A DNA stretch of 64,000 nt, taken from the NCBI RefSeq assembly GCF_028502605.1, contig NW_026611594.1, forward strand, positions 265,501 through 329,500, read 5' to 3'. Positions 19,984-63,083 of the stretch are shown in pieces. Positions within the stretch are counted from its first letter, which is position 1; each line of letters opens with the position of its first letter. Below the pieces are notes generated by a model. That model was not told the origin of the DNA and searched no databases. It was given only the letters and a program-made list of their open reading frames with translations. This DNA is from Trichoderma breve. Its lineage: Eukaryota; Ascomycota; Sordariomycetes; Hypocreales; Hypocreaceae. The position numbers and the translations under genes were made by a program.

Positions 19984-20018
19984 GTATTAATTCGTGCCTT
20001 AGTTTCCGCTCTGCAACC

Positions 20019-39992: not shown

Positions 39993-42900
39993 CTATTGTG
40001 CCCATTGTGGATTGTCAAACACCGTGACTCTCGTCGTGATTGTATTAGGTATCTTGACGGTATTGTCGTCTCCCAACTTGGGGTTCTGCGCATCTTTACA
40101 GTAGATTGCCCACACATCCAGCTCGACTTGTGTTGGATCACCCAGTGATTCATTAACCTGGGCAAGCCCCAGCATAAAGCCGAGCTCCTTGACCGTGCCA
40201 ATGTCGATCCAGCCTTTGGCGGCGCGCGGCAAGACTCGCAGGCGCAACACCCGCTGACCGCCATCATCCAGAATCTGAGGCAGCACATTGAAGCGGAGAT
40301 TAGTTAACATGATGGCGCCAGTGCCTGCGTAAGTCGGCATCAAGTAGTTTTCGTCTTGTTTGGCTGGACCGAGCTTGATCTGAATGTCGAGTTCCGCGAG
40401 CATGTACTGGTTGCTCTGGTTCTGCTCCACAGAGACAGCAAAGATGATGTCTTGCTGCAAGTTTGGCTTGCGGAGAGTGATGACGTCCCAATGGCTGCCG
40501 ATGTTGCTGCTGACAGTGATTCTGTATCTTGGTGCACTCGCTGGGTCGCTGAACTTATCACGGGGCTTGTGCTCAGCAAATGATGAGAAGGCTTCGCTTG
40601 GCCTCGGCAGTTTGTGAGCTGCGATGGTTGGGATGTGGCGGACATGGGGTGCCAAGTTCTTTGCAAGGGCCTTCACCGTTGGCACATATTCCCCATGACG
40701 TTGAAAGGTCACACCCGTTGCACCTTCATCATCGTCGTCATCATCATTATAGGGTGTAATTTGAGAGGGGACGCCATTGCCCCCTTGTCTATAACCGGGA
40801 TGCATCGCCATTCGAGCTGGTTCCAGCTGTCTCAGCGTTCTGACTTCAGTAGCGCTGGGACCACTCGACGGGCCAAGGGCGGCCAAGCTCTCATTCTCTG
40901 GATGGGCCTTAAGATCAACGGTGAGCTTGTAGACAGGATCGTTCAACTGCATAGAAAAGAGTGCCGAGGTTGCCGTATCATCTTTGAAGTAAGGCGTCCC
41001 ATCAGGAGCAGTCTGTTTCCATTTCTCAAGCTCCTCTAGCTGCACATTTGCATATTTTGGGAGACGCAAGATACGAAGGTCGTTGAGGCCTTGCCCTGGC
41101 TTTGACCCCCAGATGAAGATGTTGTCTTTAGACTTGTCACCCGTGGGGTTGGTTATGATCTGCGTAAGCTTGTCATGCCTGCCAGTGTCTGTCTCACGAG
41201 TCTTTTGGTCCACCGTATACTGTTTGCGGATATTGACCTTAATCTCATTGACGTCGAGTCCGCGAGCTACAGCAAACCGCTGCTGGTGGGCTGGCTGCGT
41301 GAAGACGAGTTGGCCAAACTGGTTTGACCCTGGTAGGCGGTCCATGAAGCCCATCATGATGCCGTCTGTGACAATGTTGTGGCGGAGGAGTGGAGCGCCC
41401 TCTGGAGGCTCCTCACCAGCAGCGCGAAGAGCATCTTCATCAGGGAGTACCTCCACGCGAAGATCCGGAAACATGGTGACCAAGTCGGATCGCAGGTAGA
41501 ACCCGTAGGCAGGAATCTGAATCTTGTGTTTGGCTCCTTTAGGTATGCTATCAATGTAGAGATTGAGCGCCGTCTTGATAGCAACCCGATCGTCGTCGAC
41601 GAGCGAATGATTGCCTAACGACAAAGCACCATCAATCATAGAGTCGATCCAGTTCTTATCAATGTGGAAGAACCTCAGGCTTTCTGGGCCCAAATACGTT
41701 GGGTCCGGTATCAAACTGTGCGCGGGGACTCCCGACAGGAACATTTTATCAACGAGCCACGAAAGCACAATCATCCAGTCCGTCGACACTGGGTCATTTG
41801 TCTCATCATACAACAAACCCTGCGACTTGCTCCCTGCAAGCCTACGGGCAACGTCTACCGCCGCGGCTTTATACCTTTGTTCAAAGTCCAGATCGGTAAA
41901 GGACATATTTGGAAGATCAGAGCGACCCATCTTCGGGCGGAACCAGCGTTTCTTGGCTCCTCCAGGGGAGAAGAATGGCTGGCCGGGCACTGGAGGCGCA
42001 AAGTTATTACCATCGTCGCGCCTGATGTGAATATTTGCAAGACTCTGGATCACTTCAGGGAGGTCTTCAAGCACTTCATCTTTTGTTCGAAACGAGATGT
42101 CGTTGATGTCCTTGATCGTCTGTAGCTTGACTGTTTTCATGGCGGGTCCATGAATAGCCGTTCTCAGCCTATTAAGGGCAGCAGTGAAGACTTCGTCTCC
42201 AAGTGCCATGGTGCGGCCAGTCTGCCATGCTATCGAATAGGTAATGTCCATAATGCCAAGCTCTTTGTCCAGGATCTGGAGATCAACACTGGAGTTTGAG
42301 GACTTGGTCAAATGGGCTAGATCTGGCACATACGTGGGCGTGAATGGCCCTCTGTAGAGTGCAACAGTTGGTTCACCCGTCTGCGTGCGATACTTGACCA
42401 GCGTGTAACCATCGTCAAGGCGACTGGCAATGCGCTGTCGGATCTTGTCAGGAGCATCTCGCAGCGGCTTGATAATACTCTCTGGAGCGCGCAGAACATC
42501 CAACGTTCTGCCAAGATGCTCAAAGGCATCAGGCACGTTGAGAGTATCGGGCGGCAGCACCGTATAGTTCCAGCTATAGAGCGAGCAGAGAGCCACATAG
42601 CGCTGGCTATCGCTAGGGAACGCCATATCTTCCACGCCTTCAATTGAAACGAGATGTGCGCACATGGTTGTTGGCGTCTGATTGTCCAGAGGGCCAGATC
42701 TGTTGCCGATGACAATGCTAAAGACGGCGGTGTTTTCTACTCCCGCGAGGGCCATGCCTGAGCCGTTGATCTTGCGTACATGCGCCAGATACTGATACTG
42801 TAAGGTATCTGCCTTGTTGTTTTCTGGAATCACCCTGTTGTTGTCTTCGTCCCACGTGGAAAAGAAGCTCTTGAAGATTTCAGGCTGGACGAAGATAAAA

Positions 42901-43679
42901 TCTCCGCGGCTGTCCTTCATAGATTCTGGCCCAAGGTCCGGTGTTACGGGTGTGATGACATCGCTGGTCGGCAGTTTCCACAGATCTGCGATGCTCATGT
43001 TGACAGTCATGGTAGAGGACTGCTTGACAGGCTTGATGACACCATCGCTCGTGGCACTGAAGATTTTGTCCAGATCTTCAGGAGGCAGACGCAGTTCGCT
43101 CTGGTCAAAAGAAAGCACCACCAGCCAAGGAACACGATTGCGCACCGGTTTCTCTTCAGATCCCTGAGCCATCAATCTCACTTTCTCCCTCAGCTCGGCG
43201 TTGGTGCCTTGCTTTGGGCTACCTAGGCGCTCCCATGGAAGATGAGGGTCTGTGAGGACAATATGCGGCAAGATTCTGTGATCATCGCTGTAGCCCGCAG
43301 GAGGATATGTCGAGTGAACACTCCCGTCAGGCAGCGAGAACTGAGGAGCGTCAACAAAGAAGCCTTGCTCAGCTGTCAGGTGCAACTTCTTGCTGCCCTT
43401 TTTTGTAGTGTTTGGATTAATGTCCTGCTCCACAGAGACAATATGCTCCTTGCCCGCCTCCAGGCCAGGCGCCCAGTATGAGTTGAGCTTCTGCTGGCCT
43501 GCTGGTAAGGGATCAATTTCTTCCTCACTGCTCTCTCCCTCATCTTGAAGTTCTCCAGAGCTGCGAAGAGCAAGTCGGACATTGCGCTGATGTATAGCCA
43601 CAAGACGACGAGCATGTCGAATAGTGAGGTGGCGGGGAGAGTCAATGCGAACGCTTTTGCCGCCAGGGTAGATACCCAT
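39993..43679 (-). CDS. Uncharacterised 1228-residue protein of the giant-protein cluster
   Basis: Single exon, no intron over 3.7 kb, unlike the neighbouring genes on the left. The start MGIYPGGKSVRIDSPRHLT is the only sensible one. No signal peptide or membrane helix. Recognisable blocks: an N-terminal HARRLVAIHQRNVRLAL helix; WLVVLSFDQSELRLP near 185; a central SLIPDPTYLGPESLRFFHIDKNWIDSMIDGAL, where a conserved-looking ESLRFFH-D-NW-D-DGA pattern sits; an IPAYGFYLRSDLV segment; an acidic run (DDDDDDEGATG); and a beta-rich C-terminal part. I have the memory of similar ESLRFF...NW...DGA segments in large bacterial hypothetical proteins, but cannot name a family. It is divergent from the DUF6603 gene and may share its promoter region (43,680-44,730). 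Confidence 0.8.
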   Translation of the reverse strand: MGIYPGGKSVRIDSPRHLTIRHARRLVAIHQRNVRLALRSSGELQDEGESSEEEIDPLPAGQQKLNSYWAPGLEAGKEHIVSVEQDINPNTTKKGSKKLHLTAEQGFFVDAPQFSLPDGSVHSTYPPAGYSDDHRILPHIVLTDPHLPWERLGSPKQGTNAELREKVRLMAQGSEEKPVRNRVPWLVVLSFDQSELRLPPEDLDKIFSATSDGVIKPVKQSSTMTVNMSIADLWKLPTSDVITPVTPDLGPESMKDSRGDFIFVQPEIFKSFFSTWDEDNNRVIPENNKADTLQYQYLAHVRKINGSGMALAGVENTAVFSIVIGNRSGPLDNQTPTTMCAHLVSIEGVEDMAFPSDSQRYVALCSLYSWNYTVLPPDTLNVPDAFEHLGRTLDVLRAPESIIKPLRDAPDKIRQRIASRLDDGYTLVKYRTQTGEPTVALYRGPFTPTYVPDLAHLTKSSNSSVDLQILDKELGIMDITYSIAWQTGRTMALGDEVFTAALNRLRTAIHGPAMKTVKLQTIKDINDISFRTKDEVLEDLPEVIQSLANIHIRRDDGNNFAPPVPGQPFFSPGGAKKRWFRPKMGRSDLPNMSFTDLDFEQRYKAAAVDVARRLAGSKSQGLLYDETNDPVSTDWMIVLSWLVDKMFLSGVPAHSLIPDPTYLGPESLRFFHIDKNWIDSMIDGALSLGNHSLVDDDRVAIKTALNLYIDSIPKGAKHKIQIPAYGFYLRSDLVTMFPDLRVEVLPDEDALRAAGEEPPEGAPLLRHNIVTDGIMMGFMDRLPGSNQFGQLVFTQPAHQQRFAVARGLDVNEIKVNIRKQYTVDQKTRETDTGRHDKLTQIITNPTGDKSKDNIFIWGSKPGQGLNDLRILRLPKYANVQLEELEKWKQTAPDGTPYFKDDTATSALFSMQLNDPVYKLTVDLKAHPENESLAALGPSSGPSATEVRTLRQLEPARMAMHPGYRQGGNGVPSQITPYNDDDDDDEGATGVTFQRHGEYVPTVKALAKNLAPHVRHIPTIAAHKLPRPSEAFSSFAEHKPRDKFSDPASAPRYRITVSSNIGSHWDVITLRKPNLQQDIIFAVSVEQNQSNQYMLAELDIQIKLGPAKQDENYLMPTYAGTGAIMLTNLRFNVLPQILDDGGQRVLRLRVLPRAAKGWIDIGTVKELGFMLGLAQVNESLGDPTQVELDVWAIYCKDAQNPKLGDDNTVKIPNTITTRVTVFDNPQWAQ

Positions 43680-44730
43680 TGTGAGAGTTAGACTGCGAGA
43701 GCAGTTGAGGCTTTACTGCTGAGTGTTGCTCTCCAGATTGTTGTCTTTGGAGCGTTTCTGTATGTATGTAATATCCACAGATGCTACTTCCCGATGGTAG
43801 AGGATTGAGTAACTCAACCACTAGTTATCAGGCAAGTCTGTCAAGTAAGCCTAGAACTAATAAGGATATAATTTCAAGAAAACTACGCAATACTTGTACA
43901 TAACTCCAGAATACTTCCTTTATCGCTTAAGTTCACAACTGTATGTCTTGTAAAGGAAGCATAGATAAAGATCAATACCCCAATCCGGGCATATTATTCG
44001 AGGTGCATCATTTTTCTCAAGGTAGTTTCAGTCGTCTCAGTCTCTCTTTTTTTTTACTATTACTCTCCAATACGACAGGGAGTCTCTTTAGCTAAGATCC
44101 TTGTAACGCACCCCCAAGCTCAGCTCTCATGCAGGTCGCAGTTGAGGGTGTGGGGATCTCAAGGGTTGGCAATGCGGGGAAGTATACGGTACTTGTATCT
44201 AGAAAATCCTCCAAGCCACAGTAGCATTGATGCTATCATGATATATGATGCACCCTCGGCTTAAACAAAAGCACCTGAAACCCATTTTGGGATCGCTAAG
44301 AACAGACTGCAGGAGGGGAAGCGCGCGAGAAACGCCAATGACGAGATTAATCACGCCATGTGCGGTGATAGTCTCATGGACACTTCTATTGGCCGAGTTA
44401 CCCTTGAGTCTGGGAAACGAATCAGACAGGGTATCTGGGGGCTGGATCGGCCCTCGCTACTATTGAATCGTATGGTGACAGAATTGGAAAAGAAAGAGAG
44501 AGAGAGTTAGGGAGGAACAAATTCCCTGTGTTGTTCGGGATTATTGCACTGCACTCACAATTTTTTGATGTGGATGCACCAAGACTCTGTGTTTGGAAAC
44601 GAAAGACAGCAAACAAAGCGTATCTCACCTATTGAAATTCATAGTAGGTATACAAATCCTCATACTATGACATTCCTCTTCCATTAGGATATCATAGGGG
44701 TAGTTTCTTTAGTCTAAAGCCATCCTCATC
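43680..44730. promoter_or_regulatory. Divergent promoter region of the two giant genes
   Basis: About 1 kb between the start codons of the 1228-residue gene (minus) and the DUF6603 gene (plus). It holds a pyrimidine-rich run around 44,035-44,070 and a purine-rich run around 44,490-44,505. No gene is seen. Co-regulation of both genes is inference from the head-to-head layout. Confidence 0.4.
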
Positions 44731-47700
44731 ATGGGCGTGGCATCTACTGAAGGAGCCCTTGTACGGGCCGGAGATACTTCACGAGAAATTCAAAATGGCA
44801 AAACCTACACCATCTACGCCAGCACAGCCAGCCAACAGCCTGGTGATGATGTCCAAATACTCAAGGCAGATACACCCACGGACAAATTTGTTGCTACTTT
44901 AAACAAAGAACAAGCTATTATCCTCTCCGAAGCACCAAACCTGACGGCACCCCTGGCAGATACGGATAAAACAAAGAAATGGTTTCAAAGTTTCGACACT
45001 GGTGCCACAGGCACGGTGAGTCTTGACAATGTAACCGACAAGAATATCGAAAAGTTCACTGTCTCGTTCATTGCACCCTGGGCTCTCACATTCAGTTCCG
45101 CCGTGGATGTCCTCATTTTCACGTTTGGTGCTTCAAGTGACCTTATCGGTGGAGGCACAGAGCCTCGATTTGTCCCCCCAGGCATTGATACCGATGGCAA
45201 GATGCTTACCTTGGGCCTCGATTTCACTACCACAAAGGACATTACCGGTGTGAAGCTCGGTGATTTATTCAAATATGTTGGATCACAGAATATGGTGGAC
45301 TACTTCTTGCCCAAGAAACTGTCTGGCCTACCACTGACTCTCAAACAACCTGGGAAAGAGGATGACCCAAAGCGTAATGCCATGTGGCTAGTACCAGACG
45401 CCGACATGACTACCACAATCCGTCTGCAGTTTCAATTCGAGCAGCTCACGTACCTGCAAGATCTTTTCAGTATCGGTCTCAAAGGCTTGACACTTACCAA
45501 CGCAGATGCCGTCTGCAAGAGAAAGCTGGTTCTAGGACAGACCGACAAGGGAGATGTTCCAGTGGATCAGGGAACCGTCGCATTGAGCATCGGATGCAAG
45601 GTCAAGGGCTCTAAGGAAAATGCCCCAGAAGTTAAAATGGTCGCCGGTGTTGAGTTTGGAGCCCGCAGCCTCAGCTTGACATTCATGTTCCTCTCAGAAA
45701 GCCCGCTCAAGGGACTTTTAATGTGGCTTGCGGAGCTCATTGATGACCCGGGCCTGGAAGAATTTGTCTCTGGACTCCTGAGCAAGAAAGAAGGCAGCTT
45801 AAACGTGCTTTCTGCTACCACTCTGCGACGTTTTACCGTTGGACTTGAGACTGAGAGCGGCAAATACTCGCCCAAATTGGCAAAATTCTCATTTGATATT
45901 GAAGTTACGGCCAACGTTGGTACGGCAAAAAGCGATAAACCTGCCGTCTTCCTGCTCTCGTATCGCTGGAATAGGAGTGAAGGTGGGCTCGGTACGCTGG
46001 AAGGACAGCTCTGGAATGGTGAGTCGATAAAAAGTCCTCTCTGTGATACCCCTGATTCAGCTACCTGCTAACGAGATGAATGAATCAATGACAGACATCA
46101 CTTCTACGGACAACTTGGATCTTAAGCCGTCGGTAGAAACGTGGAATATCTTGGTGCCCGTCACGAAAGACCCGGCACCCAGCATTGAGATTGCATCTCT
46201 GATACCCGGCCAGACGGTGGTTAACATTCCCAATACACTCCCTTCTGAAATTACACGCGCCTATATCCAACTGTCGGACCACTCCTTTGCCATTGCCGGT
46301 ACGGCTACTGCCAAGAAAATTACTCCAGGCTCAGCCCCTCAACCATATCTGGGCGAGGTTTCTTTGGACGCATCCTTCGAATGGGGCAAGAGCAGTTCCG
46401 GATTTGCCCTCAAGTTTGCATTCAATGCAGGCATTGTGCCAAGTGTATCGGCCAAGCATCAAGTACCTGCAGTGTTGGTGGGTTCTTTGAGCTATCAGTC
46501 CCAGGCGAAGAAATGGGAGCTTAATGCCTCCCTCAGCAACCTCTACGCCTCAACGTTAGTAGAGTTCTTCGATGACGATGTGAAAGATGCAGTCTGCCCA
46601 CTCATTGAATCTATTGTCGTTGACAGCCTTAAAGTTAACTATACATATGAGGGCATCACTGAGGGCACTGATAAAGGCAAGTCCAAGGGCACGTCTTTTT
46701 CAATCACTGGCGACTTGATCATCGCCGGCCTGGAGCTTGGCCTCACATTTACTCATGACAAGACGGGCTTCAAATTTACCGCGTTCCTCACCCCCACCGA
46801 TGAGAGTGTCACCATCGGGGAGGTGCTGGAGGATATTCTCGGAGACGATGAGATTGAGCTTCCCGACTTTGTGGCAAACACCCCGCTTGTCACCGACAAC
46901 GAAAAAGCCTTCCAGCTGGACGTTGAAAAGAAGACTGCAACCATTGAAAAAAAGGAATCGACTTGGTTCCATTTCTTGGCTCAAATCAATATCGGCCAAG
47001 TACATGTCAAATTTGCCCAGTTACGCAGCACCGATTGGGGCAAAACGGCCTCATCCAAGCGCCTGGTTCAAGTCGCAGTTGACGGCTTCTCAAAGAAAAA
47101 GGTTACGATTCCACTGGTTGGCGATGTGGAGCAACCGCTGGATGAACTCTACTTCCTTTGGGTGCAAGACCCTGACAATGCAAAGAATCCTCAGCCTGGG
47201 AAAGAGGCCGGTCTTACACGCAAAGACCTCGCCCAGGTGAACGCTGATGCCACGGATCCGATTTTAGTAAAGGACAAGATCGACCCCAATCTAGCGAAGG
47301 ACACGGACATCTTGGTAGCCGCCGGGTGCCACTTTGCTGTCATCATCCATAGTCCTACCGGCGAAAGATCATGCCTGTTGGACTATGCATTCATGAAGCC
47401 CAAGCCTAAGCCTAAGCAATCCGGATCTGCATCCGAAAAGGCTCTCGTATTGAAGGGTGGCAAGGGCAAGAAAGAAGAGCCAGCTGATGACGGAAGTCCA
47501 AGTGCTCAGGCTCCTTTCAAGAAGAAGGCAGGCCCGATATCCATCAGCAATGTCGGACTCAAGTACAAGGATAAGATGCTGGGCTTGAAATTCGATGCGG
47601 CCTTTGAGTTGGGTCCTATCGGTTTCTCGCTGATTGGCTTCACCATCATGGTGGACATCAAGTCTCTTAGCTCGACACCCACGTTCTCGGCAAGCATTGA

Positions 47701-49946
47701 AGGTCTTGCCGCTGCTTTTGACAAGCCGCCGTTGATGATCGCAGGCATTATTCGCCATGGCAACACAGGCGGCATCGATTACTACGCTGGTGGCCTCATC
47801 GTGGGTTGGGTGCCCTACCAATTCCAAGCGGCCGGCTTCTATGGTACGGTAACGCCCAAGGGCCAAGACGCTTTCAAATCCGTCTTTGTCTTTGCCAAAC
47901 TTGATGGCCCCCTCATTACACTGGAGTTTGCAGAGATCTCGGGCATATGTGGTGGCTTCGGCTACAACAGCAATGTCCGCGTGCCCACGGCAGAGGAGAT
48001 TTACCAGTTCCCCTTCATCGCCAGTACTGATCTCGGAGGTGCGGCAAATGCCATGGAAGCTCTACAAAAGCTCACAGATCCCGGTCCGTCTGGGTGGTTC
48101 CAGCCTCTCAATGACACGTACTGGGCTGCTGTGGGTATGAAGATTGATGCCTTTGAGATGATCAGCCTTGATGCAGTTGTGGTTGTGCAATTTGGTCAAG
48201 CCATCAAGCTGGGCATCTTTGCGCTCGCCCTCGCGGACATTCCAAATGCAAAGTCTCCCGTCAAATTTGCCCACGTTGAACTCGGCATTGCAGCCGTGGC
48301 AGATTTTGAATTCGGCACCCTCAAGATTGAAGCGCAGCTGTCTCCGCGGTCCTTCATTTTGTATCAGGACTGCCATCTTACTGGCGGCATGGGACTTTAC
48401 TACTGGTTCGATACTCCCAAAGCTGACAAATCGATTGTTGGCGACTTCGTCTTTACGTTGGGAGGTTATCACCAAGCATACAAGGTCCCAGTGGGATACC
48501 CCAATCCCCCTCGCCTTGGAATTAGCTGGAGCCTCGGCAGCAACCTGAGCATCACAGGGCAAGCATACTTTGCCATCACTCCTAAAGCTTGCATGGGCGG
48601 TGGACGACTTCATGCTTCCTTCCACGCCGGTCCTCTCGAGGCCTGGTTCGATGCATTTGCTGACTTCCTCATCAACTACAAGCCGTTCCACTTCAATGCC
48701 CAAGCGGGTTTGTCTGTTGGTGTCCGCTTCAACGTGGACTTCCTCTTCATTCACACCCATATTTCTGTCGAAATCGGTGCTCAGTTGTACCTCTGGGGAC
48801 CTCCATTGGCAGGTCGCGTCCACGTCGATTTCTGGATTGTTGCCTTCGACATCAACTTTGGCGACTCAGAGCAAAAGATCGAGGCCGTGGACTTACTCAA
48901 GTTCTACCAGCTTGTACTGCAAGCATCTGAAGACCCGTCCAAGACGGCTCAGGCCTTCATTACCATGGGCAAAGAGGCAGAAGAAGAAGGGGAAGAAAAG
49001 ACAGCTATGTTGGCAGACGACAAGTACCCAGACCCAAAGGAGAACGAAGCGCACAACTTCCTCGCCCAGACTGGTCTGTTGAATTCGGCAGAGAATCCAA
49101 CGAGGAAAACAACCGACCCATGGGTAGTCCGAGCAGGATCCTTCTCCTTCATTGTTGCATGCAAGATGGCCATCAATGAGTTTAAGAATGAAAAAGACAA
49201 GGATCCTATCATTAAAGGCGGCGACGTCTTTAGCAAGCCCATGCAACTGGATCAATCCATGACATCAACCCTTCTTGTGACGGTCGCCCAGAATGGAAAA
49301 GAAGATAATGGATGGCAATACGAAAAGTACACCAAGAATGTGCCGAGAGCTCTTTGGGCCAAGTGTAAGTGTCTCTTGTCTGTTTGAACTTGAAATGGTT
49401 CTATATCTATCTCTCTATATCTATATGTATGTGCATGGGAAGCTAATCTTTGAGAACCCAGATGACCCAAGTCAGGATCCCAGCGGTGGTAAAAACAACA
49501 TCACCGATCTTCTCAAAGGCGATGACAGTTCCGTTACTCTGATGATGGGCGTGAAATTGACCGCACCCAAGGCCCAAATGGCGCCTGATCCTTTCCCGGC
49601 GTTTGACGTAGCTGACGCTTCACTGGAGCGCCTCAAGTCTGTCAAACCGTTCCCAGCCATTGCAAATGCCAACACAGCCTGGGAACCTGTCGAGCCCTTC
49701 AAGAAGAAAGACGAGCATGACAAGGAGGTGGAAGACTTTGACAAACAGTACGCTGCCGTGCTAGATAGCTGGTCCAACCCTTCGTGGGGCACGGAAGACG
49801 ATGGACAAAAGGGATTCGTAGGTATCCTGGCAGAGAGCTTCAAGTGGGACAAGCCAGATTTGCTCAAGAGCACTGCAGGAATTCCGGAGAGGTTGAAGAA
49901 GGGATTCATGAAGATGTATGTAGCAGCACCGCTGTTGACTGCTTGA
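44731..49946 (+). CDS. Giant DUF6603-domain protein
   Basis: Three exons, 44731-46018, 46095-49364 and 49462-49946, encode 1680 residues. Introns of 76 and 97 nt keep frame (QLWNG-DITST; ALWAK-YDPSQ); the first has a CTAAC branch site. The N-terminal half (to about 860) is made of beta-rich segments (FTVSFIAPWALTFSS; LTLGLDFTTTKDITGVKLG). A low-complexity linker of Lys/Pro and Lys/Gly (KPKPKPKQSG ... GGKGKKEE) lies at about 862-908. The rest is DUF6603-like: ISNVGLKYKDKMLGLKFDAA, GGIDYYAGGLIVGW, GYPNPPRLGISWSLGSNLSI and PFHFNAQAGLSVGVRFNVD. The alternating polar/apolar strands with many aromatics suggest a long beta structure. Function of DUF6603 is unknown; it is known from large bacterial and fungal proteins. 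No signal peptide. Confidence 0.85.
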
Positions 49947-50319
49947 GGGAATGTATACGGAGAGCAGGCGTCTTTCGTGGGTAGCAGTAGAAATTGAGTA
50001 CATGTAGCCTCTTCTAACAGCGTCTACTATCTTTCCTAATTGATTTCGTCTGATTTGTGCCCAAAGACAGGCAATTAGTCGTGTCAGAATCAAAGAGAGA
50101 TACTACATAGTCTACATGCAAGGCTTTGAGGCAATACTGAGCTTGGTAGCTCGTATCTAGGTCCTATCACAATTGCTTTTGTCAAACATTACATATGCAA
50201 GAGATAAATCAAGACCTTCAACATACTAAAACTGTTCACTGTAGTCATCTACTTACAGGATAGCCCACAAGTGGCTCACTGAACGATCCAAAGACAAACA
50301 TACATTCGCACATCACCTC
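49947..50319. other. Convergent intergenic region
   Basis: About 370 bp between converging 3' ends. No coding signal. Confidence 0.5.
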
Positions 50320-51800: not shown

Positions 51801-52135
51801 AACTTCCTATGTTCCAGGTTCCTATACCGCGACGGCAAACTCTAGAGATGGTGATCGATCGTGGATGGTGTCGGTCGGAAGGGGGACTTCAAGGCTCGAG
51901 TGACTCGAGTCCAATAACAGACGAGAGCAGTTGCTTGTAATTGAGCTTGATCACGTGCTCAGCATCTGCGCATTTAAGGAGGGGTTCACCACCATAGTTT
52001 GATTCATCATCATCTTACTCCTTCAGCAACCGACAACTCTCCTCTCACACTGCCACGACATCAGGCGTCGGCTACAAGACAGATACGTCAACATTGCTTC
52101 CCCTCACAAGTCTTCAGCTCTCATAACAACCAATC

Positions 52136-52554
52136 ATGGTACGTCTCTCATGCCCAACGGCTGCAAATCTAACACGTAGTGTGCATATTTTCAAAGGCCT
52201 ATTCTAACCGACATACAGGTCGCTTCCAACCCACCTTACGGCTGGACTGTTGATGACAAGGAGATGGACATGGATTACTACTGGTCAGACAATGGCCCTG
52301 GCGTACAGGCCGCCGCGAGCGCCGGCTTAACCGAGCTTTCGAAGCTGCAGCCGCAAATGATCAGGAGCAGTGAACATGGAGGGGGCGCCTACCTGTTCAC
52401 ATACGATGGCAAGGTATACCTTTGGAACATGATTCAAGATGACGTGTACCTGTACAGCGACCCCGCAGATCTTGAGGGAGTACTACGGGAGATGAGAAAG
52501 CAGTCCGGGAAAGTGACAAGGGAGCTGGTCCTGGTTGAGGAAGCGGAGGAGTAG
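52136..52554 (+). CDS. Small acidic protein of unknown function (112 residues)
   Basis: The start codon ATG (52136-52138) forms exon 1 alone. An 80-nt intron follows (GTACGT ... ACATACAG), then exon 2 52219-52554. The product begins MVASNPPYGWTVDDKEM and contains DYYWSDNGPGVQAAAS, SSEHGGGAYLFTYDGKVYLWN and an acidic tail (LVLVEEAEE). No signal peptide and no membrane segment. The long CT-rich leader before the ATG looks like a well-expressed gene. No family recognised. Confidence 0.6.
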
Positions 52555-52603
52555 AGATGAGATGACGAATGATAGGCCTCTAGTTGGGAGAATTTGCCAG
52601 GCC

Positions 52604-52871
52604 GTGGCTTGCATAGAGAAGCTGATAGTTCAATCTATTGATAATGTGCAGAATGTGGCTTGCGTAAAGAAAGTGTTGGTGAAGTGTGATGAAACTCGGT
52701 AGTAGTGAGCTGGCTACAGTGGAGTAGCTCAACATGCAATGAGACGCTACAATCTTGCAATGGTTTTCGTAAGGACATGAGCTGAGGGCTCAATGAGGTG
52801 AAGATGAACAGCCTGTGGCTTGCGTAGGAATTCTGATATATCAATGTGATGAGAGGAGAGAGTGGCTTGCG
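52604..52871. repeat. Four degenerate GTGGCTTGCG-containing units
   Basis: GTGGCTTGC(A/G) occurs at 52,604, 52,655, 52,815 and 52,862, each followed within about 40 bp by a CTGATA/TGAT element. Spacings are 51, 160 and 47 bp. It is a decayed tandem repeat rather than a clean microsatellite. Confidence 0.5.
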
Positions 52872-53774
52872 ATGGCAAGCTGATGCGGAGTAGTTTTATG
52901 TGATGGACGTCAATCGATAGCTGAGGCGGGGTCAGGGGAACGAAATTAAAAGGAAACCAGTTTCATTGGATTCCTTATGTTTGATGGGTGAGTGAATAAG
53001 TAATGAGAATTGATAGTTTAGGTATAGTAAGTGCAGACTTAATTTTTGTGTCATGTAGGAAAACTAAATAGGTAGTTTATTGCGTGATTTACATAACAAA
53101 ACGATATCATTGACGAATAGCTTCATTCCAAATACGCATACATAGCAAAACAATCCAATGTTAATAAGGAACATATGAAGCTAAATACCGAAACTATTCA
53201 TGTGATAATCCAGCCCAAGAAGAGACCTAACAGGGGCATTGCCCCCTCCACACACGGCACGTTAATAGCTGATCTCCCGGGATCCTCCGCCCCAGCCCAT
53301 GGGACGAGTTTCCGAGGTGGAGATGGTCAGGGTGTCAGCTATTTGAAAACTGCCGGGTCCGCTTTTTAAGGACACTTATTGCCTAGCTTTCACTGCAACC
53401 TGCCTCGAAGCGCTTGGGCGTATTTCAAAGGCGGTTGGAGAAGGGGGAGGGGTGAAGCGTAGCATAGGTGGGAGTGAAGATAGCTATCCGGTGGCTTCTC
53501 ATCCAAGTTCAAGAATCGTTCAATTCCATAGGGACAGCGCCACAAAGAGATTACCCCGCTGATGATAGACTACTTGTGCAGATAATGACAGAGTGAAACC
53601 ACACATTTGCTCGGGGAGCGGTTCCTTAGAGCCTTCCAACATGTGGGTAAGTTGCGACAGTCACGGTGTTCAATCCGATCGCAGAAATCGCGTTTACCCT
53701 GTAATCGATGTGCCACCTATGTGGCTCCGTGACGTACCTACGTATGATGAGATTTATGCATTATAGTTTGAAAG

Positions 53775-53796
53775 GAGAGAGAGAGAGAGAGAGAGA
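53775..53796. repeat. (GA)11 microsatellite
   Basis: A run of 11 GA units, plainly visible. No coding frame around it. Confidence 0.9.
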
Positions 53797-54413
53797 TTGA
53801 CTATAATGCGTACCCTACAGTGAAACTTTTTATTAATCTCACGACACACTTACAGATACTCCATAGGATAGTTTACGTTAGTTACTACTATTTTATCAAC
53901 ATTACTACACTCATTTCTTTACTTTCCTGAAAGCTATCTGGATGACAAAACTTGGATACTGTCTCTTTTTTCAAGCGATAACTCTCTTTTACCCTCTTAT
54001 ATATGAAGTATATGTGACGTGTAGTGTCTTCAGTGTATACATTGATATCGCCTCATGGATACTGGACTGACCACCTTGTATTATATGCGTGTCACGTCAA
54101 TAACTGTTTAAATGCGTGATATTGTTGGCCGAGACTATATTGCAGGTAATGCTTCCAGTACTCAAATGGACAATTGGTTGCTTACTTGGACCAAACTGAC
54201 TTCTATCAAGTTGGAGCTGACGAAGTCATCGAGCTAGGCTAAATATCGCGTAGATGATATAAGAAGTTGCTTTGGAATATCGAACACCATCCTACAAAAC
54301 ACTGCAGAACTGATGCGGCGATGAGGTTTTCAATAACTCCAGACGAGTTGCATTGCTATCTGTTCATATCTAACTGATTTCTGCTAATTCCAGGGCAGCC
54401 TCCTCCCAGTTCT

Positions 54414-55427
54414 TTACTCCTGGAGCGGATCGGTCACGTGGGTGAAATCATTGTCGGCAAGAGAGTTGTCGACAGACACGTAGAAGAGATGGTTGAGGCC
54501 ATTGGCGGTAGTGACAGTCAGCTGGCCGGGAACGCTAATCTTGGTAGCGTCGTCGATTCTCACGCTTGACGACCAGGACGCGTTTCCATCAACACCAGTC
54601 TTGATAATTCGTCGAATGTTGGATCCTGAATCAACGTAGTAGATGTAGACCTTGTCGTTATCGTACGTGAGAGCAATGGTGGTGCCGTCGAGAGTACCCT
54701 GAGAGTTCTCAATGTCAAAGCCTATGTGGAAAAACTAAGGTCAGTATATAACGGAAAATAGGACTGCGTTGTTCAAAGGGAGACGTACTCTGGTTGCTGT
54801 TAATGTCGTACTCCTTGAGGTGGCCCTGGTTTACCTCCTGGTAAATGATATAACGGTGACCGTTCTTGGGGTTAACATAGGCCGCGAGTGAGCTGTTAAG
54901 CTTGATATCGGCGTTCTTGAGGTAAGTTGCGGTATGCTGTGTCAAGAAGTTGTATTCCTTGAGCGACGTTTGGTAGTTGGCGGAGCCACTGTATATCTGG
55001 TTAGTAAAGCTGTCAACTCTTTAACCGGTACATGATTAATTTACTCCAAGAAGTATGCCCAGGCGCCCTTATCAGACGAAGCGAACGAAGTGTTTTTGTT
55101 GGCCAAGGAAGTAGTGTTCAGCTTTTTGTACACAGGAGAGACGAGAGAAATCTGGTTCTTGGTCACAGAGGCGCCCTTTTCAACCAGGGGAACTGTGGTT
55201 GCGATAACATGGTGAACGCCACGGAAGCTACCACCAGAGATCTCAGAGGGGTTGAGGATGTAGCCAGGGTAATCGTCGTCACCGCAGACGTAGACATCAT
55301 TCTCATCACTGCCATCAGTGCCAGTCTTCAAGGTCAAGGCAACTTGAGCATTGCCAGTGTTGAAGAAGAGGTTGACGCTCCTGTCCTTGGGAGCAAGAGG
55401 GTTGTAGATTGCTGCGAGGGCGGCCAT
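54414..55427 (-). CDS. Beta-propeller lectin-like protein
   Basis: Three exons, 55427-55045, 54988-54789 and 54721-54414, encode 296 residues; the two introns (56 and 67 nt) keep frame (AYFLD-GSANYQ; NSNQS-FDIEN). The start is MAALAAIYNPLAPKD and there is no signal peptide. The sequence shows repeated blade-like strands: VNLFFNTGNAQVALTLK, GTTIALTYDNDKVYIYYVDSG and NHLFYVSTDNSLAD. This layout resembles fungal fucose-binding and related six-bladed beta-propeller lectins of about 300 residues, which are also leaderless. I cannot confirm the sugar-binding residues. Such lectins often defend against grazers or are used in recognition. It lies inside the giant-protein cluster, but may be there by chance. 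Confidence 0.6.
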
Positions 55428-57069
55428 TGTTGATGATTGTGTTTAAGTTAGAAGAGTTATTTCAAAGAGCTGAGAGCTGTGAAGATGTCTGTGGAAAGAA
55501 TCCTGTTGATGCTGGATGATGAAGTTTGAAGTGTCGAGAGCTCAATTAGAAGGTGGTTGTCGTCCTTGATATAGTTGTCGTCCTCGTCGCATTTTCCTTC
55601 CAACTTGAAGCCCAAGAAGAGGCCCACGGATTCTGTCTGCCTTGTTGTCACCCGCGTTGACGAAATGATAGGAGAGCTTGAACTCGGGGCACGCGATTTT
55701 CCTCCATCATTACGTAGCTGGCGCCTTCCCAGTCCGAATTGAAGCTCATTGATCCATCAGTTTGGCAGTCAGCCAGCCTCTTGACAGCTAGACTGTGTTG
55801 TTCAGCTTGGTTCACGCATCTTTCGCCAGCTGAAGGAATATCACCACATCCAATAAAATGCCTAAAAATCTTTCTCCTCTGTGGCGGGCGGTTGTATCGC
55901 TCAATGACACCCAATTAGCGATGTAGCGTGTTTCCAATGCATCCCAAGTTGTCAATCACAACAGCTCAGGACGCATGTGATTGCGACAACAAACGTTACT
56001 GGTATGTCCGTAGTGTAGGCAGTTATGGATGCTTCATCACGATCGCCATGCAGGCGAAGCAGAAAATGGTAAGAGACGGCAAGCCACTGTCATCACAACA
56101 TGAGCTGAATGACGGTAGTTGCTCAGCGGGTTGACTATTCTGACTATTCAGCGCCGTCGACTAGTTCCCGCGTCTCCATCAAGAGAGGGGGCGGGAACTA
56201 ACCATAGACAAACGGGAACTAGTCGACCGCGCTGGCTAGTCAATGGAGCATTGGCCAATCCATGTCTTCGCCATTTACGCTATGCTGTTTTCAATAGTTT
56301 ACCCCTCACTGGGAGCCGGTCCTGACAAGGTTGTCGGCCCTCTTGGCAGCTGGGACACGGATCGAGGAGTTATCACTTGTATCAGTGACTTGTGGCGGGG
56401 ACACGAAGGAGCTTGAGTGTGGCTCGGCAATGCATCGCCGTCGTCATTACGGTAGCTCTAGTTTTCTGTGGAGTAGCTGAGTGAAAATAAAAGTGAGAAG
56501 TGATGGAATTAGCAGAAGTGTGCCGACGGAATCCACGAGTTAGCCTCCGAATGGACTCAGTATGGAGCTATTGCGGGCGGGGATACGCCATTAACACCCG
56601 AATAAGCTAGTAAAGCAAAGAAGCAAATTATTTAGTCTAACTAGGAGGTACAGGGCAAAGAATTATTATTGTTGCTTGATACCAACGGGGTACCGTATAT
56701 ATCAAGCAGTTTTGATAGTATGATATGTAATCTCCTATGTAGAATTATAACTATATATACTTAAAATGAGGGAGGCATGAATTTAAAAAAGAAGGTTAAA
56801 CTAAATCAGGCTATGACATTCTTGAGATCAAGTAGCACTGATAGAGAGACACAATATGGAACCGTACTTATCCAAGTAATGTGAGCAAACAATTCATGTA
56901 AATTGAGATTCAGTTCTTCATCTTTGCTGGCATTATCTCAGTAAGGGCTACAGGTCTAAACCATCAGGAAGCAGTGTCTGCTCCGGTGACCCGAGCCCGG
57001 ACGCTGAATGCACCTTGATCTCTCTCTTCTTCTTTTCCCCATAAAGCACATACATCAACTACCTGAAAA
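55428..57069. other. Intergenic region with an inverted repeat, no gene seen
   Basis: About 1.6 kb, containing the promoters of the lectin-like gene (minus) and the 1415-residue gene (plus). A strong inverted repeat lies at 56,151-56,232. Short frames on both strands have no recognisable motif. Confidence 0.45.
56151..56232. repeat. Inverted repeat with 15-bp perfect arms
   Basis: Left arm GTCGACTAGTTCCCG (56,156-56,170), right arm CGGGAACTAGTCGAC (56,213-56,227), loop of 42 bp. Beyond one mismatch the pairing goes on for four more bases (GCGC outer ends). CGGGAACTA is repeated once more inside the loop (56,192-56,200). Could be the ends of a small transposable element, a hairpin or a binding site. 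Confidence 0.6.
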
Positions 57070-60000
57070 ATGCCGGATACAGTCAAAGACTTCGACACCG
57101 TGCTGGTGCCAATGCAGTTGGAGGCCTTTGTGCTAAATCCAGCTGTATGTGGTACTGGCCAAGAGGGCGATGATACAACACGCATCGCACCCATCACGCA
57201 GCCCAACTACACTTTCCTGCGACTAGACAAATACATGCTGCAGAAAGATGTTCAGAACCACGCAGATCTTCATAACACTGCTCCTGCTATTGTGAACCCG
57301 CGTCTCTATGATCTCGGGAGCCGTGATGATGAGGGACAGCCTAAAGCTCTCCGCCATCGCCACGGCGTGTATATCCACTGGATTCTGCCTCGTTTCTATC
57401 GATCAGGCACATCATCTGGTAGCACAGTTTCGAAGCAGAGGCGGCGAGAAGAGCGCTTGAGACGTGGCTTGCATGCTGCGCCTGGAGACGCTGAAGAAGA
57501 TGGCGGCAACGACACGCCGGATTTTGTCCAACCACCGACTCGATGGATTGTGATTCGCAAGATTGAATTGGATAGTATACAGCCAGCAGATGCGAAATCA
57601 GCTTTCCAAGACAAAGAATATGAGGCGTGGGTGGTTGATAGTGACCACATCTGGTCACTGGACCAGATACCATTGGATATGGACTTGCAGACGGACTTTG
57701 CGCCGTTTGTCAAGGGACACGCCGGCTCGGATATCAACATTGGCGAGCAGGCCGAAGTCTTCATCGGACGCAAGACTCCGTTGGCGGACTGGTCCGAAAC
57801 ACCAAATCCCAGCGTTGATCCGCCCAATCTCAGTCTGCTACAGAGCGGCAATCAGCTGTTCGCAGACTTCCAGATGCACAACACGAATGTCTTCAGTGTG
57901 CTAGACAATTTTGAGTACGGGGCTGGCGATAAAGATGGGCCCAAGTATCTGTCTTATGCCAAAGCTAGCTATTATGTCCTTGGATGGCACTGGAAAGATG
58001 ATGTTGATCCTTTGTGGACTTCTGGCAAGACAATTGCCCACGGCGCCAGCTTGGCAAACCTCTTCATGACTCTCCAAGGCGCGGATCCTACAGACTCGTG
58101 GATGGAGAAAATCAGCCAATTGCATCTCATGTGTCACGGCGCTATGTACGACGTTACATGGGACCATGAAAATAAGCCAAAAGATGTGCCGGCGGATCGG
58201 TACAATGCTCGTCTCCGCGATCAGGAACTGGCGGCTGTCTCTGTGGGAACAACTCCTATGGATGCCATCATCTCGTACTGCACGGCTCGCAAAGACCACC
58301 CGGGGATTCCTGGTGACATTGCTAAATTGGAAGAGTCAATCTTGGCGATTGATTCGCTTCTATACGCGCGTGATGATGGCGTCGAAGATCAACGCCAAGC
58401 CAAGGATACCATTTATAACTGGTCCTTTACACGCTCTCCCGGAGGTGAAAGGTACTATTTCTCCGGAAATGATGATGACGGGAAATCAGACAATCAGCCA
58501 ATGGTACCGGAGAGGGACGCCATCCTTGCGCTCCGCGACTTGAATCAGACCAAGAAGCTCCTCGATGCGTGCCGTTTTGCAATGACTCAGTATCGCTGGG
58601 ATATGTTCTCTCTGTGGTGGAAGTTTGTCAGCGATGCCGGCAATGACGGTACTGATCCCACCGCCCCGGCATTCCTTCAAAAAGCCAAAGATCTATCAGA
58701 GCATATTTCTCGCCTCAAAGACCGCATGGATGAGCTGCAGCATAAGATTGATCTTATGCTGGACCCCCCGATTGCTATCCATGGGACAAATTTCTTGGCG
58801 ACAGCCAAGCCTGCCAGTATGCCTGCCTATTGCCGAGCGAACAATCCTACTGTCCTCATTGGCGGCATAGAGTCAGGCTGGCCGACGGACTATCTGAACA
58901 GAGTCTCTGTCCGAGCACCATATCAGGTCATTCCCTCGTCCGCTACCTTACCCGAGTCCTTGAACAAAGTTTTGGCTCTATTTACAAAATTGCCTCCATT
59001 GCTTAAGCAGCACGCAATTGATCTGGTGACAGAGTTCTATGCGCTTCGCCCCGGTGGTGGTGATTCTGGCACGGCGCCGGAGACTCGCTTCTACCCACAG
59101 TTCCACGACAAGACAATGGATCCCGAGACTCAAATTGAGCGCTGGCGGGATCAGTGGTCGGAGCGACAGCCATGGTTCCCGCTGTTTGTGGAGTGGGAGA
59201 TTGAGTACGACCACATTCCCTTTGAGTATTGGAACTTGGACGAGCATACAGCCCGCCTATCAGCCAATGTGCTCTCTCGTTATGGCATCACCGTGAAGCC
59301 AAGGGACGGCAAAGAAGCGCTTCCTCTTTGGGACGATTTGAAGATCTCTCAAAAAGATAAAGGTCCAGATACACGCATTCTATCTGGGCGCTCGCTCATA
59401 TTGCCGCAGCCCAGCTTCTCCCTTGAGGCCAAGGTCGTCCAACTATTTGATAATACCCCCAAAGATGCCTTGGACAAGTACTTGACCGAAGATGACCGGA
59501 CTGATTTGAGAGCGAACATGCGCAAGTTGTCATATCTTTCTTCTCCGCTTTCTGGCTTGTTTGATGGGTTGGTCACCCAGGCAGAGGGCAGCCATGTGAA
59601 GCCCGAGAACAAGTTCGTTGGTCCCGAAGGCGAAGTCAGCGAAGCAATGGTTGAAGCTGTCATTGAAACTGCTGGTTTGACAAAGCCCAACCTGGAGATG
59701 ATCATGGGCAACTCTGCCCTCACGCCGTATGCAGCACAGCAAGATTTTGCAACAGATAAATGGAACCCCTTCAAGCCGGTCACACACGGACAGTTTAGGT
59801 GAGCATTCCCAGTCACACATATACACAGTCTCTGTCGTATCAACCAGAGCGAACCAAGCTAACTACTGTTGTGCAACTAGATTCCGCAAACTCAATGTCA
59901 TTGACAAGTTTGGGCAAGCTCTGATGGCCATTGACCAGAAGCCGCGAGTGGATGGGCCGCCACCAATCTACCCCTGCATCAGTGACTTTTACGAGCCACA

Positions 60001-61399
60001 GACCATTGAGGTAGACGGCAAGCTCTACGCTAATACGGTGATCAAAGATGAGGCCAAGCAGTGCGAATTCCTGCAACTGCCGCCTCAAATCAACCAAAAT
60101 GCTCGTCTAAATGCCGACTTTGTCAAGCGAATTGCTGACGATCCGCCTGACATGAAAGAGGGACTGGATGAAGGTGCGAATGGAGCTACTTGGCGTCCGG
60201 CTACAGAGTGGGAAAACCCAATCTGGGGCTGGGTCATCACCAACTACGCCGACTTTGGCATCCAGCTCTTCTTGCCAGACGGTACTTTCTACCGCGAGGT
60301 TCGCTTTGGAGGGCCCCTTGGCGCATTGGATGCCCCCAAATGGCTGCCTTTTGCACCATCTACGGACCCTCCGACGCCAGAGACCAAGCAACTTGATGCA
60401 TTGGCCAAAGAGCTTAACGATCCCTCATATCTGGAGGGATTCTGGTATATGATCACGACTGCTCAATCAAAGCTAGCGGCTGCTCCAACCTCTTACGCAT
60501 CGTTTCTCAACGCCATCGTGGGTAAGCCTCTTGCCTTGGCCAACATGGGCTGGTCGCTTGAGCTTGAAAGCCAACCATTGCAAACTCAAACCACCAAGAG
60601 TCCCCTGACAGCCCCCGAGCGCCTGTTGACCAAACCAGACGACGACGAAGATGAGTCGCCGTATTATAAGTTCCAGATCCGCTTTGGCGACCGTGAGGCT
60701 GAATATGACGGCCTCGTGGGTTACTTTGATACCACTACTCCGAAATCAGACGAGCTCAATCTGAGCAAGGTCAAGACATTTTTTGCGCCAGAGGAGGGAG
60801 AGAAGAAACCACTGGAGCGTCTCAACACTACAAACTATCCCCTCTTCACACCTTTCTGGGAGGCTCCATTCCCTACTCGGGCACCATATGACAATGAAAA
60901 CCTCATTGTCAAGCCGGCAGCATTTGATGACCGCCGCAATGCACGCATGTCCGTCTTTGGCGCCATCATCGACCCCTTCACTCCCGTGCAAGCCTATTCG
61001 TCATTTTTGCCACCCGTTTCGCTGACCTTGCCTCACTGGAGCTGGCAAAGCGCCATGAACACCATGACCGCATTCTTCCACGCGGGGCCTTTGACCATAC
61101 CGCTGAATGACGTTCCAGAATATCATGAGAAGGAACTCCTGACTAGCAAAAACGCTAGGGATATGCCGTTGCGGAATCTTCCATTGCCCTCTCTGGGGCC
61201 GGGAGATTGGTCCTTTTTCCAGCCATATGCTCAGCCGTCTGAGGAAGAGGATCCCCAGCCTAAATTCAATCCGTTTGGTATTGAAAAGACGGGTAATCTC
61301 ACCAAGCCTGGGCTGCAAAAGGGTCCGTATACTGCCATTGAGGGATTTTTGCAGTTGAGAAACCCAATCATGATGCCTAAACCTAAGCAGACTGCTTGA
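57070..61399 (+). CDS. Uncharacterised 1415-residue protein of the giant-protein cluster
   Basis: Two exons, 57070-59798 and 59881-61399; the 82-nt intron (GTGAGC ... CAACTAG) keeps frame (THGQFR-FRKLN). The start MPDTVKDFDTVLVPMQLEAF has no signal peptide. The N-terminal part has RHRHGVYIHWILPRFYRSG, then RWIVIRK and AWVVDSDHIWSLDQIP. In my memory a similar order (a G-YxHW-LP segment, then RW-V-R, then a W-V-SD segment) marks a group of large bacterial proteins that I cannot name. A helix-rich middle follows (ISRLKDRMDELQHKIDLML), and the C-terminal third has NPIWGWVITNYADFGIQLFL. The gene resembles its cluster partners in length and in having almost no introns. Function unknown. Confidence 0.8.
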
Positions 61400-62078
61400 T
61401 AGGATAAGACCTCATTAGAAAGCTAAAAGAAATTGTCTATTGGAATCAGTTCGTCACTATGTCTATTAACGGCTTGAGTACCCGGTAGTCTTTGCCTAAG
61501 AAAATGCTGTGCTCCCTAGTTTTCCCGCAATCGTGACATTGCTGTATGTTCCGGTTATTCTATCCAGATATACTTCAGTCACGAGATGTTTCTTTAGATG
61601 CCCACAAGTGATATCCCTTTGTCCCATGCTCACACATGATGAATCCAAATCTGTCACTTCAAGTGCTCTTCCTCTAATGCTGTCGTGATTTCTAATCAAA
61701 TGGGAAAAAAATTACTCCATCTTATTCATCATCTTTAAAGGGTAATTTATTTATCATTTTTGTATAAATTATTATAAAATTAACCATCGGATTAAATAGG
61801 CTTAATAGCATACGTGTACGCCGATGTGTGTGTCGAGTGCAATACTACTTGTCCACGTAAGCCCCCTAGCTGCACCAAAAGACACCCAACCTAAACGTGC
61901 TCCTGCATGTGCTATTGAATGGATGTTATAGAGACACTCCATGATGTACAAAGTCTATTATAGGGTCTCAGAACTTCCGGGATATATACATGTATTTATA
62001 TATATATAGGGCCGGCCTCCTTCAGACCGTCTAAATAGCCTCCGTTCAACTTGACCAAACTAGCCTCAAGCCATCATC
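61400..62078. other. Intergenic region, no gene seen
   Basis: Between two genes on the same strand. AT-rich (61,690-61,800), with a TATATATATAGG stretch at about 61,995-62,010 that may be a core promoter element of the next gene. Confidence 0.4.
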
Positions 62079-63083
62079 ATGGAGTTTAATACAGAACACC
62101 TGGATCTCAAGTATGTATCTCTCGATATACACGATGTTTCAAGATAGCTTATTAGGAACAACAGCAAATTTTATGCCAACCACCAGGATCTCTGGGGCGG
62201 CAGTCGAATGGATGCCCTTGTCGGCCTGGTCGAAAGTAGCATCCTGGAGCCCAAAGACCTCATCAAGCGCGGCGAGGTCCCAGTTTCGTACATCTTCGCC
62301 ATAGAGCCGACGAGTGACGACGAAAGTGTACATAGAGCATTTGAGTCTCTCATGAGCGCCGCCGGGATGATCCGCTTCTTCGCTGCCGTCAACGAAGTGT
62401 CGGACTATGACAATCAGAGTCGCAAAGAGACTTATTCCATCAAGAACCCGGACGAGGTTGCTCTGGCTTTTGAAGAGGCCGCCAATGCGACCATGACTTC
62501 GCTCACCAAGGCCCAAGTCGGAGCTGTTTACACAGTGGACAGTACCGTGACAGAATCCGTGTGCGTGAACAAATCGCGTGCGGAACTTCGCCAATACGTC
62601 ATTGAACGCATCCTTGCCGGTCTTCCTGATGTCAACAGCTCGGTCATCAACAAGGTCAATGAAGCCTTTGCAGACTTCATTCGCAAGATAAGGCCGTTCC
62701 AGGTCAGCGAGGCATCAGAGCCTTCCACCGTGAATCACTGCGTCGTTGTTCACTACATTGCCATGAGTGACGCGACTGGGGATGCTGCGTCTCCGGTTCC
62801 ACAGCCAAAAACACGTGTGGTGTATTTCAAATGCAAGGCTGGGGACTGGGACCGTGCGATGCAGAAGCCCGATGGTTCCATTAAGGATGAAAAGATACCT
62901 TTTGTCATGGAAATTCTGGTTCAGGAGATGAGGCTAGACGAAACGCTGTTCCGGAGACGAAAAGGCAATTGGGAAACCATGGCTAGGTTTATTGCCGAAA
63001 ACAAGGACGATGTCAAGGAGGTTGTCGAAAGTGAGGGTATTGAAGGGTTTGGCAGGAAGACGGCGTTTGTGTTTGAGGCTTAG
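62079..63083 (+). CDS. Uncharacterised 319-residue protein next to the giant genes
   Basis: Two exons, 62079-62110 and 62156-63083; the 45-nt intron (GTATGTATC ... TTATTAG) keeps frame (HLDLK-NNSKF). A small protein with FYANHQDLWGGSRMDALVGLVESS near the start and SYIFAIEPTSDDESVHRAFESLM; the C-terminal half contains VVHYIAMSD and FKCKAGDWDRAM. No signal peptide, membrane helix or recognised motif. The gene follows the 1415-residue gene on the same strand, so it may belong to the same system. Function unknown. Confidence 0.75.

Follow-up and report, generated by a model that had tools for sequence, protein, structure and literature searches.

A conserved three-gene module of Trichoderma breve related to a bacterial operon of large proteins

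Three large genes, here called A, B and C, were analysed in a 64,000-nucleotide stretch of the Trichoderma breve genome (assembly GCF_028502605.1, contig NW_026611594.1, positions 265,501 to 329,500 of the forward strand; hereafter the window). Together they almost certainly constitute a conserved module related to a bacterial operon in which the genes are ordered B-A-C. A preliminary description of this DNA had grouped A, B and C with a smaller gene, D, as proteins of 1228, 1680, 1415 and 319 residues that might form an undescribed, perhaps horizontally acquired assembly. Rebuilt gene models agreed with these lengths to the residue and with the head-to-head arrangement of A and B; A was intronless as described, and the others had two introns (B) or one (C and D). 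B proved to be a clear member of the DUF6603 family, as had been stated (PF20248, E 5e-158, 527 bits against a curated cut-off of 27).

Bacterial genome contigs were scanned using bacterial C as the query, and 80 confirmed loci out of 135 were kept for analysis. A and C were present in all 80 and B in 78, the other two contigs being just 4.5 and 3.2 kb long. The genes lay on one strand in the order B-A-C in each of the 78 loci showing all three, with median gaps of 185 and 50 bases between matches. These relatives of C bear out the earlier remark that the 1415-residue protein resembles large bacterial proteins. Bacterial open frames were shorter than the fungal genes, with medians of 830 (B), 755 (A), and 1204 (C) residues in protein sets that contain fragments and for which start codons were picked automatically. 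Most hosts were Actinomycetota; the labels SAR324, Gammaproteobacteria, Acidobacteria, and Chitinophaga each appeared on one locus. Among plasmids searched using tblastn, B matched 14 records. A and C both matched one set of 8 records (Streptomyces, Embleya, and Paenibacillus), 7 of which also matched B, the exception being Paenibacillus sonchi. A first genome scan using a fungal C alignment had returned 0 relatives among 55 stretches and a viral scan 0 among 53, because the search patterns came from fungal sequences only; a phage scan using the bacterial C query returned no loci.

Co-occurrence was determined across 245 genomes of one order, an even draw around the genome of locus L050, itself a carrier. 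B was detected in 39 genomes, A in 29, and C in 26 (Fisher p 4e-23 for B by C). Strong A matches (E < 1e-26) were found in 25 genomes, exactly the 25 holding both B and C; the remaining four A matches were weak, with three of these genomes B-positive, and a single genome (G214) held C without B or A. The preliminary description had suggested looking for repeated co-occurrence of its genes, which was thus found for A, B and C in 78 bacterial loci and 25 of 245 genomes. By this pattern, the presence of A and C is dependent on that of B, which has other partners too. Four DUF6603 genes (L105-L108, from haloarchaea and other Streptomyces) precede other large uncharacterised genes, and the gene next to DUF6603 matched the A profile weakly (hmmsearch E 1e-6 to 2e-4), which suggests that a wider superfamily of DUF6603-led operons may exist.

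Several arrangements around the bacterial operon were recorded separately. Two of the 245 sampled genomes, G043 and G192, had a variant order with C ahead of B and A. A gene of the CATRA conflict system and another with a CHAT domain were located ~5 kb upstream of a B-A-C operon on a Streptomyces plasmid (L016:4048-9104). On a Paenibacillus polymyxa plasmid, two baseplate-V genes and a DUF4280 gene were located ~9 kb upstream of B-A-C (L015:1612-6607), and these baseplate genes may be chance neighbours. One bacterial C contained an inserted stretch that resembled, by eye, an F5/8C discoidin domain (L018:20232-24230).

A second cluster was present in the same genome (38.5 Mb in nine contigs), where PF20248 matched just two places, the window and contig C2. 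Diverged copies of A and C were both found at one C2 locus, and the resulting A'-B'-C' cluster extends over ~19 kb, C' and A' being arranged head to head. Window proteins were 30-37% identical to their C2 counterparts (tblastn against 50 kb of C2). A single open frame makes up each of B', C', and A', so that introns are scarcer still than in the copies of the window. A multi-exon gene on the reverse strand (G000:C2 ~6852700-6854100) lies between an MBL-like gene and C', and so occupies the B-to-C interval in which the window copy has a lectin-like gene; it had no family match, its sole match being a WD-repeat protein at E 0.88. The coordinates of the features in both clusters are collected in Table 1.

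Table 1. Positions of the module genes and adjoining features in the window and on contig C2 of Trichoderma breve.
Feature	Position	Strand	Basis and remarks
Gene A	39993..43679, stop included (coding 39996-43679)	-	Rebuilt model; single exon, 1228 residues
A-B divergent intergenic stretch	43680..44730		~1.05 kb; genes head to head
Gene B, exon 1	44731..46018	+	Rebuilt model; B is 1680 residues in three exons
Gene B, exon 2	46095..49364	+	Rebuilt model, Pfam; bears the DUF6603 domain
Gene B, exon 3	49462..49946, stop included	+	Rebuilt model
DUF6603 domain (PF20248) of B	47519..49150	+	Pfam match
Lectin-like gene, between B and C	54414..55427	-	Label of the preliminary description; no Pfam or PDB-sequence match
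Gene C, exon 1	57070..59798	+	Rebuilt model; C is 1415 residues in two exons
Gene C, exon 2	59881..61399, stop included	+	Rebuilt model
Gene D	62079..63083	+	Rebuilt model; 319 residues, exons 62079-62110 and 62156-63083
B' open frame	G000:C2:6845178-6850961	-	PF20248, 497 bits
MBL-like open frame next to B'	G000:C2:6850978-6852162	-	Open frame
C'	G000:C2:6855450-6859928	-	One open frame, paralogue of C
A'	G000:C2:6860395-6863991	+	One open frame, paralogue of A

Fungal protein homologues were sought using A, C, and D, while B homologues were sought inside this genome. At E 0.001, 409 homologues of A and 337 of C were found, and the named ones among the best 120 of each all belong to genera of Ascomycota. 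They include Sordariomycetes, Eurotiomycetes, Pezizomycetes, Orbilia, and a lichen. The window proteins themselves were 97% (A) and 98% (C) identical to T. harzianum proteins, which places the genome in the T. harzianum group. At least 41 of the best 120 A matches shared a contig with a listed C match (judged by equally long contigs). Locus-tag distances between A and C ranged from neighbours (EYZ11_008793/008792 and ANO14919_135950/135940) to six tags. One tag lay between them in TOPH_07326/07324, DCS_00101/00099, FAVG1_06872/06874, F53441_1547/1549, DL767_000736/000738, NHQ30_003467/003465, and CDD83_513/511, and this single tag would fit B there. Wider pairs included MN608_10960/10957, PT974_01748/01744, G7046_g4218/g4214, CDD83_8565/8560, and ESCO_005595/005589.

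D did not share this distribution. Of its 13 homologues, 11 were named Trichoderma proteins and the other two came from metagenomes, one of them unnamed and the other shorter; D had no match in 50 kb of C2 (tblastn) or in the bacterial loci. Being almost confined to Trichoderma, D is a lineage-specific neighbour outside the conserved module; it was rejected as a component, and the grouping of all four genes in one cluster was given up with it. In T. viride the D tag is six from the A tag (ACHAPE_008070/008076).

Trees of A and C, rooted at the midpoint, were built from 38 fungal and 25 bacterial pairs selected for linkage. The fungal set comprised the two Trichoderma clusters and those 36 of 41 linked pairs that passed a length filter; the bacterial set drew 24 pairs from the 80 loci and added a Paenibacillus. 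The gene trees that the preliminary description had suggested building showed fungi separated from bacteria by a single branch with support of 0.998 for A and 1.0 for C. A and C distances correlated in fungi (r 0.897) and in bacteria (r 0.869), with 0 of 1000 permutations as high, in a comparison that ignores organismal phylogeny. Because both trees have one well-supported fungal/bacterial branch, a single ancient transfer between the domains would be the simplest reading. The direction from bacteria to fungi is suggested because the bacterial spread is wider and the genes are intron-poor; most simply, the donor would have been a bacterium and the recipient an ancestor of filamentous Ascomycota, with later duplication. 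GC content at third codon positions (GC3) was 0.57-0.61 in A-D and 0.58-0.62 in the C2 trio, against 0.40-0.66 in 11 left-hand open frames of the window, so that the proposed comparison with the left part uncovered no anomaly, and a recent transfer was rejected on composition. The transfer is considered old because of the spread over Ascomycota, the single fungal branch, and the ordinary GC3. Horizontal acquisition as first suggested therefore stands as the simplest reading, and recent arrival does not.

A fourth gene, family 4, was found in 64 of the 80 bacterial loci, in 63 of which it lies downstream of C, starting no more than ~1.5 kb past it. Approximately 262 N-terminal residues are conserved and the rest is variable. 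The best PDB profile match of the N-terminal part was a fibronectin-III protein at E 0.63, and an immunoglobulin-like (Ig-like) fold is our guess. Among 48 members scanned, 4 matched F5/8C, 4 NedA-like galactose-binding, 2 bactofilin, and 1 fn3 domains; 2 of the 48 members matched a phage tail-fibre family, and a few members had haemagglutinin-repeat matches. Heads were compared by cutting 75 members of at least 330 residues at residue 262. In 129 non-independent pairs with N-terminal parts at least 70% identical, the heads were unrelated in 74 and related in 55, and in the closest group they were unrelated in 53 of 55 pairs. At the remaining locus (L095:5104-9942, a gammaproteobacterial metagenome genome), A and family 4 form one open frame of 1613 codons, and this fusion suggests that family 4 may dock on A. 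Across 41 bacterial loci with flanks of at most ~10 kb, every family other than B, A, C, and family 4 was confined to 5 loci or fewer.

The family-4 profile had no match at E <= 1 in the open frames of the window or of 50 kb of C2, and any fungal recognition part must therefore be different. The bacterial A protein aligned with residues ~55-750 of fungal A, the remaining C-terminal ~480 residues being a fungal extension. A fused family-4 domain was considered for this extension and rejected (E 0.05, probability 1%).

Of 87 bacterial loci, 12 had a metallo-beta-lactamase-like (MBL-like) gene upstream of B; this count is a lower bound, given the truncated flanks, and includes the query's own locus. 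Such a gene also adjoins B' on C2. A thirteenth locus, L095, was matched by the fungal MBL-like query alone. One bacterial example scored 17.9 bits against Pfam Lactamase_B, under the cut-off of 22.7, and the fungal C2 protein had no Pfam match. Both were matched by the PADLOC models LmuA (bacterial 1.5e-8, fungal 1.7e-12) and Avs1a (4e-4 and 5e-5), and the RTasMBL model also matched MBL-like neighbours.

Known domains were sparse in the module, and nothing in Pfam, NCBIfam, PHROGs, or PADLOC significantly matched A and C or their bacterial homologues. No Pfam family matched A, C, or D (E <= 1; whole D E <= 0.5), no NCBIfam model at E 0.1 matched A or P0121, a C homologue 98% identical to C, and the NCBIfam matches of D were all far under their cut-offs. 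No PADLOC model matched window A, P0121, or bacterial A, B, and C; no PHROG matched bacterial A, B, or C; and no NTPase or nuclease domain was found in A, B, or C by Pfam. Profile searches of PDB sequences using A, B, C, and family 4 gave weak, chance-like matches, the best at E 0.033 in a coiled-coil stretch of C. Homology of A or B to C was rejected (hhalign probability ~0).

The modelled core of bacterial DUF6603 was a ~20-stranded antiparallel beta-sheet forming a long, mostly amphipathic meander. For the model of A, Foldseek searches of PDB and of viral models gave nothing at E 0.001, and its weak fold matches were Ig-like and S-layer pieces. The preliminary description had reported no signal peptide or membrane helix in any of the proteins; a crude hydropathy check, made with no dedicated predictor, agreed for A, C, and D, while B peaked at 1.92 over 19 residues inside the beta domain.

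On its left side, next to the trio, the window has genes of the kind found in incompatibility or immunity neighbourhoods. Positions 1104-37023 hold a HET gene (1104-3017), an NB-ARC plus TPR gene (12222-15116), a hybrid histidine kinase, and an ankyrin protein (34372-37023), and DUF7580 adjoins a PNP_UDP phosphorylase domain at 18901-21113. Between B and C, the deaminase-like, lectin-like, and acidic genes of the preliminary description had no Pfam match at E <= 0.5 and are at most candidate partners of the trio; the lectin label was likewise not confirmed by PDB-sequence searches at E <= 1.

The best overall explanation, mechanism included, is that the trio is the fungal form of a three-subunit bacterial machine, a view in which we place somewhat less than even confidence. 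Under this proposal A, B, and C would assemble into one complex, in which B would be an amphipathic sheet or barrel of beta-strands, able to bind lipid or enter it, A a hub holding the recognition head, and C a scaffold. Lacking a signal peptide, the complex would be synthesised in the cytoplasm and released by injury or ingestion; it would then bind surface glycans or receptors and attack foreign membranes, in a role of conflict, defence, or action against predators. A surface-recognising beta-sheet conflict complex of this kind, stored in the cytoplasm and forming pores or binding lipid, is offered tentatively. No window subunit had a recognisable signal peptide in the crude check, although the N-terminus was hydrophobic in 18 of 81 bacterial C frames. 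Rather doubtful is the broader proposition that B-A-C with its heads represents a new class of modular machine, in which heads would steer a giant pore-forming or lipid-extracting beta-sheet subunit to foreign surfaces, captured once by fungi before filamentous Ascomycota spread and fitted there with separate recognition parts. As for the undescribed assembly first proposed, an undescribed conserved gene module was recovered, and the physical complex is a prediction from it.

Three other explanations were weighed. B, A, and C might instead build a layer on the surface of filamentous cells, such as a sheath or a spore coat, decorated by the fourth gene as an adhesin and killing nothing. The hosts of the 80 loci, by name largely filamentous or spore-forming Actinomycetota, would suit such a layer, as would the Ig-like and S-layer pieces matched by A and the bactofilin-like and haemagglutinin-repeat matches of family 4. 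It is nonetheless unlikely, since the crude check revealed no clear signal peptide or anchor, and patchy presence (B in 39 of 245 genomes) together with exchanged heads suits conflict better than a housekeeping coat. Intracellular antiviral or antiphage immunity, in which the variable head would sense an invader and B-A-C, sometimes with an MBL-fold hydrolase, would kill the infected cell, is also improbable, and a little more so. MBL-like neighbours matching Avs1a, LmuA, and RTasMBL in bacteria and on Trichoderma C2, the bacterial copy near a CATRA/CHAT conflict locus, and the HET, NB-ARC, and PNP genes of the window favour it. Set against these are the missing PADLOC matches and NTPase or nuclease domains of A, B, and C, and the MBL-like gene not seen in 75 of 87 loci (short flanks); to our knowledge, fibre-like proteins with F5/8C heads would also be unusual sensors. 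A chance neighbourhood of dispersed, unrelated large genes is next to impossible, although conserved partnership with the trio was seen neither for D nor for the small genes of the B-to-C interval; for A, B, and C it is refuted by the second cluster, the bacterial operons, the co-occurrence, and the linkage of A and C in many Ascomycota, so that the expectation of more than a chance group was justified.

If the conserved-machine reading is correct, the trio would represent a rare inter-domain transfer of a multi-protein machine whose operon has been kept linked across Ascomycota and duplicated at least here. DUF6603, a Pfam family without an assigned function, acquires a predicted fold, a candidate role, and two partners that recur with it. 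The bacterial copies, whose heads can differ even among close relatives, have the look of a targetable recognition system. The finding points to a protein machine that is apparently undescribed. A full-text literature search for DUF6603 or PF20248 returned no paper, and broader word searches of titles and abstract openings (including PMC7159879, in the part available) returned none on the trio, with subscription papers and preprints outside the scope of both.

Among known systems, DUF6603 itself has a B member in a fungus and in bacteria, but the family is one domain, and nothing in its match output connects it to A or C. Outer-membrane beta-barrels and ApoB resemble the B model in their long, antiparallel, mostly amphipathic meander, but the root-mean-square deviation was ~10 A with at most 10% identity among the best 50 matches listed; moreover, B is without a clear signal peptide and the hosts are mostly without an outer membrane. 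A Tc toxin complex was recently reported in Metarhizium according to the available part of PMC13236867, and the trio likewise comprises large, multi-subunit, bacterial-type proteins in a fungus. No Tc-type domains (SpvB/TcdB, TcA, or Rhs) were found in A, B, or C using Pfam at E <= 1, exon by exon; subunit sizes differ, and the A and B models gave no Tc toxin among the matches listed. Family 4 resembles a phage-tail-like fibre with an exchangeable head, but no sheath, tube, or baseplate family of a contractile injection system or tailocin recurred at over 5 of the 41 bacterial loci, and no PHROG matched bacterial A, B, or C. Through its Avs1a and LmuA matches, the MBL-like neighbour may point to AVAST or Lamassu, systems in which an MBL-fold effector has an NTPase or SMC partner. 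Fungal anti-nematode lectins are stored in the cytoplasm and act on damage or ingestion, as described in the accessible portion of PMC6272156. Although LSL-type lectins are, in that portion, far smaller single proteins than the three giant ones, and glycan binding by the trio is hypothetical, such defence lectins and chimerolectins (PMC6272156) would be alike to it in signal-less cytoplasmic storage, glycan targeting, and the idea of a beta-pore.
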